Positions 33,238 to 49,482 of a stretch of 64,000 nt of DNA are shown one piece after another. The position numbers and the translations under genes are program-made. The notes below the pieces were generated by a model, which did no database searches, was not told where the DNA came from, and was given only the letters and a program-made list of their open reading frames with translations. The stretch comes from Parus major (lineage: Eukaryota > Chordata > Aves > Passeriformes > Paridae). Where the stretch lies: NCBI RefSeq assembly GCF_001522545.3, contig NC_031769.1:70573814-70637813 (forward strand). The letters run 5' to 3'. Each line of letters starts with the position of its first letter. Positions within the stretch are counted from its first letter, which is position 1.

Positions 33238-33449
33238 GTAGAACAGAATGGAATAGAATAGAGAATAGAATAGAATAGAATAGAATAGAATAGAATAGAA
33301 TAGAATAGAATAGAATAGAATAGAATAGAATAGAATAGAATAGAATAGANAATAGAATAGAATAGAATAGAATAGAATAGAATAGAATAGAATAGAATAG
33401 AATAGAATAGAATAGAATAGAATAGAATAGAATAGAATAGAATAGAATA
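33238..33449. repeat. (AATAG)n pentamer microsatellite with one N
   Basis: About 212 bases of TAGAA units, imperfect at the left (GAACAGAATGGAATAG) and nearly perfect further on. A single N stands at 33350 and the repeat phase changes there, so the N marks an unresolved join rather than one unknown base. The array directly abuts the 3' end of the CR1 on the minus strand. In element orientation it reads TTCTA repeats, so it probably grew from the CR1 tail, whose unit is ATTCTATG. Confidence 0.97.
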
Positions 33450-34881
33450 ATTTAGTTTGAAAAATACCTCTAAGATCATTGTGCTAAATCATTAACCCTG
33501 CACTGTCAAGTCTGCCACTAAGCTGTGTCCCTACGCTTTTAATATCTTCAGGGCTGGTGATTCCACCACTCCCCTGGACAGTGTATTCCAATGTCTCACC
33601 TCCCTTTCCATTAAGAATTTTTTCCTAATATCTAAACTAAACTTGGAGCAACACAAGGCTGTTTCCTATTGGTCTTTCTTTTGCTATATGGGAGAAAAGG
33701 CCAACTCCCACCTGGCTTCAACCTCCATTCACACAGTTGTAGAGAGCACTAAAGTGTCCCCTCAGCCTCCTTTTCTCCAGGCTAAACACCCCCAGCTCCC
33801 TTCACCACTCCTCATCAGACTTGCGCTCTAGACCTTCACCAACTCCATTGCCCTTCTTTGGACATGCTCCAGCACCTACATGTCCTTCTCATAGTGAGAG
33901 ACCCAAAACCCAAAAAAAGATCCAAGTATGGCCTCATAAGTGCCAAAACAGGGGGCCTATAACTGCCCTTGTCCTGCCACACTATTTCTGATCCAAGACA
34001 AGAATGGCCTTGGCCACCTGGGCACACACTGGCTTATGTTCCGCTGACTGTGATGATGCTCAAGATGACTCCACAACCTTCAAGGTCAGGCTGACAGACT
34101 TCTAGATGGGCAGTACATTTGTCAACTTTCAGTCAACTGGAATCTCCCCAGTTAGCCAGGGCTGCAAGTAAATTCTGAAAAGTGGCTCAGTGATCACTTC
34201 TGTCAGCTCCCTTGGATGGATCCCATTCATCCCCTTCAACTTGTGCATGTCACCATGGTGCAGAAAGTTGATGACCTTTTCCACTTGGATTATAGGAGCT
34301 TCATTTTACTCAGTCTCTGTCTTCTAGCTCAGGGGCTGGATAACCTGAGAAAAATTTGTCTAACTGCTAAAGACTGAGACAAGGCACTAAGTACCTCAGC
34401 CTTTTCCTCATCCTTGTCAACATGTTTCCTCCTCCATCCAATAAAGGTTGAAGATTCTCTATTGCCCTCCATTTCTTGATGATGTATTTGTAAGAAAACT
34501 TTTTGTCTGTTATAGCAGTAGCCAGATAAGGTTCTAGTTGGGATTTCACCCTTCTAATTTTCTCTCTACATAACCTCACAAGATCCTTCTGAATAATTCT
34601 TCTGAATTAGCCACCCCTTCCTCCAAAAGTCATAAAATAACCTTCCATTTATATTTTTTTTTAATTCAAGACAGAGCTCACTGTTAAGCCCAGCAAGTCT
34701 TCTTTGCCACCAGCTCTTTTTCCAGCACATGTGTCTTTAAGATTTGCTTCTTGAAAATCATCCAGCCCGGCTGAATTACATTGCCCTTTAGGAATGTTTT
34801 CCAAGGAACTCTGTCAACCAGGCTCCTTAAGAGGCCAAAGTCTGCCCTCAGGAAATCCAAGGTGACAGTTCTGCTGACTCC

Positions 34882-34948
34882 TGTCCTTCTCAAAGAACCA
34901 TAAAACTCTTTCATTTCATGATCACTATGCTTAAGACAGCCTCCAGCC
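34882..34948. repeat. 67-bp direct repeat, copy 1 (artefact)
   Basis: Identical base for base to 34975-35041. The two copies are separated only by adapter sequence, so one is a duplicate created during library preparation or assembly. Confidence 0.95.
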
Positions 34949-34974
34949 TGTCTCTTATACACATCTAGATGTGT
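34948..34974. other. Residual Nextera/Tn5 mosaic-end junction adapter (assembly contamination)
   Basis: The 19 bases at 34948-34966 are CTGTCTCTTATACACATCT, the Tn5 mosaic end used in transposase-based libraries. The next eight (34967-34974, AGATGTGT) are the start of its reverse complement, as in the circularised mate-pair junction adapter, cut short. It is not genomic. On the minus strand the segment translates to DVYKRQ, a string that can arise only from this adapter. The true genomic sequence should contain a single copy of the flanking 67 bp. Confidence 0.97.
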
Positions 34975-35041
34975 TGTCCTTCTCAAAGAACCATAAAACT
35001 CTTTCATTTCATGATCACTATGCTTAAGACAGCCTCCAGCC
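34975..35041. repeat. 67-bp direct repeat, copy 2 (artefact)
   Basis: Exact copy of 34882-34948. CR1 copies normally carry this segment once. Confidence 0.95.
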
Positions 35042-35131
35042 ATCACATCACCCACAAGTCTTTTCTTGTTCACAAACCACTACTCTACTAGGACACTTTC
35101 CCTAGCTGGCTCACTCAACAGCTGTGTCAGA

Positions 35132-38100
35132 TGTTTTCCCTTCCCTTGAAATATAACTTCCTCTGAGTTTTAGTAGTTATGATTTGGAGTAATTTGGGCA
35201 TCCTTTTCAACTAAGTTGTTAGTATCTAGTCAAGATGATTTCATGATAGCTATACACACATGATGCTACCAGGGTAAACTTAATTCTGTAGGAAAAGGTA
35301 GGAATACTATAAATAGTTATTTTACTTCATGAAAAGAAAAAAAAAAAAAGTGTTATAGCCCACTTATTCCTCTACCTGGTATGCTTGTAAAGTTGTTTTA
35401 TATTTTTCCCATGTTAGATACATTATCGGCACCCACTGTTTTATTAAAGTTTTCACAAAGAACTGCAATAGTTTTGATGACCAAAAATATTCAGACAACA
35501 CTCTTTCTAGCACTCTTTTGCTAGCTATATACAGTTGACAAATAATTACCAATATTGTTGCAATTTCTAGTAGCATTAATCTCTCTAATAAAATACAGAA
35601 GTCTGTATCTTCAACCCTTGAGTATTGTGAAGAACTCCCAGAAGGCCAACAAAATAAAACTGCCTCTCTAATCTTTCCCCAAAGTAGCTTTGATAAAAAT
35701 AAGTTTCTCTTTCCTCCATGCTGTCTGATTTTATTTCTTTACAATTTATCATTTCATTAACCAACAATACAATCCTACCTTCCCAGCTTCATTATTCATT
35801 CCTGAGTATCACATAGATTTAAATAAGGATGTTGAAGTCATGTTTTTAGATGCTGTAGTCATCAGTAAAAGCACATAAATCAATGTAAAGTACATTCAGA
35901 ATGGAATCTTAGTGGTCAGAACTGGTCAAAATTAATAAAACTATAGAAGAGTTGTAAGAAACTAGAATTTAGGTGTGGGAAGGTAAGCATAATCACAGGA
36001 AAATAACAATTCAATAAATAAAATTAATGGTCATGAAAGGATTGCCCAAGAACAACCTATGCAATCCATTAAGAAGAACAAATTCAAAAATTATTTCTGT
36101 GTTGATATGCAGCAGTAGTTTCACGGTTGTAACTGTTTGTTGTTCACAGACACTTCCTTAAATCTACCCTTAAATATTTTTTAGCCTTGAGTTCAGGAAA
36201 AAAGTTAAGACATTAATGGAACTTACCTGACTCTACAATAAGTTCTTTGTCATAACTTAGCCAGGAGTTAATTATTTTTTACCACCAAATAACATTTTAA
36301 TTCAGAACTACCAGGATTAAAGCAGGAATCACTTGATCAAATGCATTTCTTTCTGTGATGCTTAAACTAATTACCCTAACAACCTGCTGAATATCTACAG
36401 CATCAGTGTCTCCCAGGACCTTAGATGTCTCTTCAGACACTTGGCATCAATTCAGACCACAAATGCAGCCCAGACTCACATAATTTTCAAAACAGATGTT
36501 ATCAACATTGCATCATTGAATTGTTTAACACCAATAATTTAACCCTCAGTCTGGGTTTCCATAACTCAACTCAGAGCCTGCATTTCCAGGTTCAACTCCT
36601 CAATTCTGTTGCTGCCTCCTCTCAACAAATGCATTTCTGTCACGTTTCTGCTGCATCTGCCACTGCTGGCCTGGCATCTCAGGTGGCCTCCTGTACTAAT
36701 GAGGAGGGGCAGGGGACAATCTTGCCCCAGCTAATTTCACCTAGGTTCTGGACTAAGATTTTTTAAAATAATAACTGCTGCTTTATCCATTATGCTATCA
36801 AAACCAAAATGTTCATTCCAAGTCACCAAGTATTTTCCATCCACTTGCTAGCTCACTGGATGTTCAGAATTTGCTCATGGACATTGCATCATACCTGGTT
36901 TAAAATCAACAACCTGGCAATAATTTGCAGGACTCTTTTGACTGTACAATTTAGAATTTAGAGACTGAGTACACTGTTGCCACCTGCTTTATGGAGGCAC
37001 TCAGCATTCTTGCTGAAAACTAACCCATCACAGGTTATCCACTTTCCTTAGGACATAAGTACAATGGACAGTATCTTAATTTTATGCTCTTTATAATTCT
37101 TAGAATAATCTCTAAATGCTCAAAAGATACTGTTTTGAGCAAAATATCAGAAAACATGTATAGCACTATTTTAAACACAAAGTTCATGTAGCTTTAAGGC
37201 TAATAATTCCATGGATATATAAATAACTTGTACATTAATAAAATACTAGTTTAAATACAAGAAAAATAGTTTAAATACAAGAAGATACTGAGTTTTCCTT
37301 CTCACACAACTAAATCAAGATTACATAGAATGTTTCTGCAATATTAGAACTGGAGAAATGCTTGAAATTAGAAAGTTAATTCCAGATTCTTCTATTTACA
37401 GAAATAATCTGTGCATGGTGCTAAAATTATACATATAAAGGATAATGAAAAGATTTGTTATGCCTATTTTAAATTTTCAAATTATTTTCAGTTGAAATTT
37501 TGATTAGAAGTAGGCTTTAATCTGGGTCTTAGCCACCTATGGCTCCTGAAAATTTATTTACATATTTTGTGGTCAAACTCCTTGGTTATTTATATTGCTG
37601 TACTTGCTGTTTAACTCAATGTTCAAATAAAGCCATAGGAGAATCTAGTATAAAATAATATTATACAATGCTATGGATCTATGGTCCAAATCCTTTACAT
37701 GTAAAGAAATGGCAGCAGTGACATTCAGGCTGAAAACCAGGTGTATCAAATATATTATCACAAACTAGATTATTAACATGTGAGTTGGTGTAAACAGTGG
37801 GCAGTGCACAGTAGTGATGACCCTGGACATCAAAGGGAAAATAAGAAAGAGAAATAGAGATTAACACACCCCCACCACCACTTCCCCATACTCCATGTTC
37901 CATGGAAGAAATTAACTGAAACTTTCTTTTCCCTCTCCTAAGCAAAGTCCCAGTTTTTAAAAGCCAACAGAAGTTTCCTCCTTTTGTTCAAAGACATACA
38001 AATAAGGGCTTTAATTTTCCCATGAAGTGTTCAGCAAGGGACTTCATCTGAATTTGTACAGTGTGCAAAACATTATTGTTTTATATGGTTAATTTTTTTT

Positions 38101-49232: not shown

Positions 49233-49482
49233 AAATAAAATAAAATAAAATAAAATAAAATAANNNNNNNNNNNNNNNNNNNNNNNNNNNNNNNNNNNNN
49301 NNNNNNNNNNNNNNNNNNNNNNNNNNNNNNNNNNNNNNNNNNNNNNNNNNNNNNNNNNNNNNNNNNNNNNNNNNNNNNNNNNNNNNNNNNNNNNNNNNAA
49401 AATAAAATAAAATAAAATAAAATAAAATAAAATAAAATAAAATAAAATAAAATAAAATAAAATAAAATAAAATAAAATAAAT
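49233..49482. repeat. (AAAAT)n pentamer microsatellite containing an assembly gap
   Basis: About 31 bases of (TAAAA)n lie before and 84 after a 135-base run of N. Both flanks have the same unit. The true array length is unknown because the gap lies inside the repeat. The long minus-strand open frame reported across it (LFYFI repeats) is an artefact of the repeat and the N run. Confidence 0.97.
49264..49398. other. Assembly gap, 135 N
   Basis: A run of 135 unknown bases with microsatellite on both sides; it is probably a scaffolding gap of estimated size. Confidence 0.99.

Follow-up and report, generated by a model that had tools for sequence, protein, structure and literature searches.

The window, a 64-kb stretch of the great tit (Parus major) genome assembly, carries at 34882-35041 a piece of sequencing adapter set between two copies of the same host sequence. 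The Tn5-type mosaic end (ME) occupies 34948-34966 on the plus strand (CTGTCTCTTATACACATCT, 19/19 bases). Even with 3 mismatches allowed, the window contains no other ME match, and the same search of shuffled window sequence gave matches in 0 of 100 shuffles. The ME is followed directly by the first 8 of the 19 bases of its inverted counterpart (34967-34974, AGATGTGT). Read directly from the window, bases 34948-34974 equal bases 1-27 of what we take to be the 38-base Nextera mate-pair junction. The flanks are two direct 67-bp copies, 34882-34948 and 34975-35041, with 100% identity and a spacing of 93 bases; the C at 34948 is common to copy 1 and the ME. A preliminary description, made from the letters of the window, had placed the adapter and both copies correctly to the base. 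The features discussed below are as follows.

34882-34948, plus strand: copy 1 of the 67-bp direct repeat; left contig end, adjoining the Tn5 cut
34939-34947, plus strand: the 9 bases ahead of the ME; 4 of 7 informative positions agree with the Tn5 target preference
34948-34966, plus strand: Tn5 mosaic end, exact 19 bp (adapter)
34967-34974, plus strand: inverted ME, first 8 of 19 bases; the remainder of the mate-pair junction is absent
34975-35041, plus strand: copy 2 of the 67-bp repeat; right contig start, its left border presumably a computational join
34684-35079, minus strand: 131-aa open frame across the artefact, including DVYKRQ; decayed CR1-type fragment, no gene
34700-35144, minus strand: CR1-type repeat context, the span aligned by relatives in the same genome

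Elsewhere in the window, an assembly gap (49264-49398, 135 N) separates an AAATA array from an AAAAT array, and a single N stands at 33350 inside a (TAGAA)n array, whose 10-base register breaks there by 17. Both have the look of joins made from short reads within simple repeats.

The sequence interrupted by the adapter is a dispersed repeat. The assignment to a CR1-type element, made in the preliminary description, is supported both by relatives in the genome and by LINE-like avian protein relatives, CR1 being presumably the correct family name. A search of the same genome with a 551-bp region, in which 40 of 184 candidates were scored, yielded 54 matching pieces, counting the window itself. 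Several relatives contribute two pieces that overlap in the genome, e.g., C1:86933719-86933931 and C1:86933873-86934013. Among the protein relatives are an avian protein that carries PF14529 and one recorded as a jockey-like reverse transcriptase; numerous genomic copies together with LINE protein similarity are what a CR1-type LINE should display. The relatives also reveal the uninterrupted state of the locus. Thus, 9 of the 11 aligned CR1 relatives run as a single copy across the insert site, lacking 50-90 bases of the window with nothing substituted for them, while the other 2 match the left side only. Analogously, none of the 12 protein relatives (E <= 10) contains DVYKRQ. In 9 of them, the alignment covers both sides and leaves residues of the window frame unmatched in between, and in 3 it covers the left side only.

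The minus-strand frame 34684-35079 does remain open across the insert for 131 aa from stop to stop (...SLRRTTHLDVYKRQAGGCLKHSDHEM...), and it does contain the false in-frame peptide with DVYKRQ, as had been pointed out. A Pfam search with this frame returned no match; when three neighbouring frames were added, three of the four had no match and the fourth matched only Vps5, with an E-value of 0.17, below the cut-off. An Rfam search of the 64-kb window and a plasmid similarity search with the artefact region were likewise without match. The frame is a decayed CR1-type fragment and not a gene, and the odd protein segment encoded across the adapter is almost certainly not real.

The adapter is by no means unique to this locus. 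A screen of the whole assembly (1,020,301,622 bases, 1,669 contigs), which the preliminary description had proposed, found 198 exact MEs (102 + 96), compared with 0 matches to a reversed-ME control and a random expectation that arithmetic puts at about 0.007. This settles that adapter sequence has been left inside the assembly. The 15-base ME prefix occurs at 220 places (control, 4). One hundred of the 198 exact sites, including that of the window (L044), were used to establish the anatomy of the class by local alignment, an abutting repeat being defined as one that ends no more than 3 bases before the ME and restarts no more than 12 bases after it. Such a direct repeat is present at 77 of the 100 sites, versus 2 of 200 control points of the same loci; among the other 23 sites, 7 have an offset repeat and 16 have none within 250 bp. 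The repeats are 21-156 bp long (median 60), and in 64 of the 77 they are exact over their full length and reach the ME. In 76 of the 77, the bases between the ME and copy 2 form a prefix, 0-9 bases long, of the inverted ME; the spacer measures 0 bases in 32 sites, 1 in 12, 2 in 10, and 3-9 in 23. In a second set, the first 20 of 32 further places that, by the search pattern used, have no A after the ME, the repeat abuts at 14 sites, and 6 have no abutting repeat under the thresholds applied. Incomplete MEs behave in the same way: among the first 100 prefix places, which cover C1-C3 and part of C4, 11 have 17-18 matching ME bases instead of the full 19, with copy 2 beginning after 16-18 of these, and the repeat is present in all 11.

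Several further properties of the class deserve mention. The spacing between copies does not correspond to a fixed assembly word size, a possibility we rejected, since its median is 83 and 73 of 77 values spread between 50 and 130. Selection for preservation of the reading frame was rejected as well. The statement that the 93-base insertion keeps the frame is true (93 = 3 x 31) but is not notable, because the spacing is divisible by three in 31 of the 77 repeat-bearing sites. Of the 91 repeat sites, 3 have an N-run of at least 5 within 600 bp, as do 4 of the 29 others, a weak difference. Adapter tails, which were searched from 15 bases up, are rare at 16-18 bases, commonest at 19, and fewer at 20-28; tails of at least 30 junction bases occur at 1 of 198 sites. 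That one site (L124, C10:12222574-12222603) has 37 of the 38 junction bases and no flanking repeat. It is likely a true chimera containing the whole junction, i.e., of the kind that the preliminary description had in mind for the window site. At another site (L021), the ME and 8 inverted-ME bases are followed by about 30 other bases, a second imperfect junction stretch, and then a 97-bp copy 2; it looks as though two or more adapter-bearing reads went into this join.

The identity of the reagent follows from what stands after the ME. Since this is a prefix of the inverted ME in 76 of the 77 repeat-bearing sites, and since a search for paired-end continuations of the Nextera i5/i7 type after the ME gave 0 matches among the assembly sites, the reagent is the mate-pair junction adapter, as first proposed. 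The locus shares with known Nextera mate-pair contamination the exact 19-bp ME, the succession of ME and inverted ME (8 of 19 bases at the window site) and, as a class, the Tn5 preference at the border between genome and ME, which is considered next.

Over the 9 bases that it duplicates, Tn5 weakly prefers the target GNTYWRANC, and a border at which the transposase cut should retain traces of it. G at -9 and C at -1 are among the 4 positions that agree at 34939-34947, a fit that, for this single site, proves nothing by itself. Of the 100 sites, 47 have G at -9 and 46 have C at -1, compared with a background of about 21% each. The mean consensus score is 3.73 of 7 at the ME border and 1.99-2.63 when the register is moved by 1-4 bases; moving it by 5 gives 3.26, so the surroundings are not flat. 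At the start of copy 2, the score is 2.66, compared with 2.35-2.71 at shifted places (77 sites). When the 91 repeat sites among the 120 read in both sets are pooled, the left border scores 3.69, the right 2.76, and the baseline 2.56; left and right differ with p = 2.5e-6, and right and baseline with p = 0.10. It should be noted that the slight excess of the right border over the baseline counts against the reading, preferred below, of the repeat as an unmerged overlap. The sites that lack an abutting repeat (23 of 100 in the first set, 6 of 20 in the second), L124 among the further ones, count against it as well.

Bacterial reference contigs, at least 120 stretches of which contain the full 38-bp junction, served as a positive control. 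Up to four full junctions occur in one 8-kb stretch (L192 and L226, among the matches listed), and 7 stretches of 6 IMG/VR viral contigs contain the full junction as well. The control set comprised the 80 listed bacterial loci with 90 full junctions, 85 of which had enough flank. The left and right borders of these 85 score 3.85 and 3.41, respectively, against a baseline of 1.93, i.e., the Tn5 signature is found on both sides, and a repeat abuts in 14 of the 85. Because of these 14, a repeat alone does not exclude a whole junction. The great tit sites differ from the bacterial ones in that the junction is nearly always shortened and the unmerged repeat is the rule (77 of 100). As whole junctions have two Tn5 borders and the great tit class has one, the copy-2 border of that class is best read as made by software.

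In our opinion, the locus is very probably a two-step assembly artefact, in which a contig end with an adapter tail was abutted to the next contig and the overlap between the two was left unmerged. In the wet laboratory, genomic DNA would have been tagmented by Tn5 at about 34947/34948 and thereby have acquired the mosaic end. When the mate-pair (jump) library was circularised, this first mosaic end would have been joined to a second, inverted one, and a jump read would have run from the genome through the first and into 8 bases of the second. In the computer, such a read, its adapter unremoved, may have been used for lengthening a contig end or for closing a gap. Its tail of about 16-28 adapter bases would have hidden the 67-bp overlap with the next contig from the assembler, for which reason the two contigs would have been abutted instead of merged, giving copy 1, tail, and copy 2. 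The single site in the window presumably arose as its class did, and the program and step responsible for the join are inferred. The limit of the tails near 28 bases may reflect a trimming or screening rule. As to the cause of the sharp range of tail lengths, our guess is that reads may have been cut where at least 10 inverted-ME bases were recognised and left otherwise, which would produce the peak at 19 and the near-stop at 28.

The preliminary description had recognised a mate-pair adapter artefact, which stands, and had explained it by a junction read assembled as genomic DNA, which is not supported. In that explanation, sequencing passes right through the junction of a circularised mate-pair fragment, and the resulting read enters the assembly whole. 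In its favour, the adapter is of the mate-pair type, one great tit site retains 37 of the 38 junction bases, and bacterial references often contain whole junctions. However, such a chimera should contain the full 38 bp between two Tn5 borders, and the window site has 27 of 38, while the class to which it belongs has a clear Tn5 signature only at the ME-side border. Moreover, the explanation leaves the flanking repeat unaccounted for: two Tn5-cut ends joined to each other would not duplicate the left flank, and a kilobase-sized fragment would not put copies of one 67-bp sequence to the left and right of the adapter. We therefore regard the assembly of a whole junction as improbable here, and an overlap of two contigs that was left unmerged accounts better for the 67-bp duplication. 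A repeat around the adapter would be obtained directly if a 67-bp tagmented fragment had been circularised and read around, which yields copy, junction, and copy. Circles of about 100 bp form poorly, and this route predicts both a full junction and a two-sided Tn5 signature, neither of which is seen in the class; it is accordingly much less probable still.

A real insertion in the bird, whether a Tn5-like element or a scar left by Tn5 engineering together with a genomic duplication, has in its favour the presence of the sequence in the assembly and nothing more, and we give it a negligible probability. The 19-bp ME is, as we take it, a laboratory hybrid sequence. It recurs at 198 sites with repeats of varying length rather than of 9 bp, the window site has neither cargo nor a second full end, and the CR1 relatives lack the insert. 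A natural Tn5/IS50 insertion would show a 9-bp duplication and two inverted ends around a cargo, whereas a 67-bp repeat and one full end are found. The genome-wide recurrence of the adapter and its absence from the alignable CR1 relatives thus uphold the earlier judgement that this is not biology.

With the unmerged-overlap reading, the locus joins two kinds of known sequence. The Vertebrate Genomes Project has used the term homotype false duplication (PMC9516828, as described in the available part of that paper) for copies of one locus set apart because the assembler failed to collapse them, and the great tit site is probably of this nature: its copies are identical, and its relatives are single-copy (9 of 11, the remaining 2 aligning on the left only). 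Sequence errors and haplotypes are the causes given in that part of the paper, and the word adapter does not occur in its main text; at the great tit site, the likely cause is the adapter tail, and the copies are tens of bases long. The peptide, in turn, resembles the linker scars of Tn5-engineered proteins, in which the ME read in the same frame gives DVYKRQ; thus, a myc tag inserted with Tn5 ends in ...ARADVYKRQ (PMC4106830, available part). Those scars, however, are deliberate real insertions, each with a nine-nucleotide repeat according to the same part of that source.

The chances are about even, in our estimate, that the joins marked by adapter are only what can be seen of a larger set, to which the same step contributed many more short false tandem duplications without adapter, and that a one-sided versus a two-sided Tn5 signature generally separates computational joins from wet-laboratory chimeras in assemblies of tagmentation libraries.

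Adaptor removal in the published great tit assembly was probably incomplete. The word Nextera does not occur in the main text of the great tit genome paper, and our literature search found no earlier report of this contamination among the matches listed, which does not prove that none exists. A 19-base screen detects full-length adapter ends, and shorter tails require a shorter pattern. An open frame of at least 100 aa crosses the adapter at 46 of the 120 sites read; these frames are mechanical, some running off the locus or through N, and are not genes. The adapter peptides in the printed frames are DVYKRQ, CLLYTS, VSYTHL, LSLIHI, and MCIRDR. In the literature, DVYKRQ turned up in 4 papers, and a search for five further adapter peptides led to one paper, itself among those 4.

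No biology of the great tit is at stake in these findings. The error is nevertheless systematic. This chromosome-level bird assembly carries 198 full adapter ends, and 91 of the 120 sites read also have a false repeat, typically some tens of bases in length. Such sites can introduce spurious exon segments and peptides, as well as indels that show up in comparisons but are not real. Thus, the biological interest of the locus is low, and its practical value is moderate.
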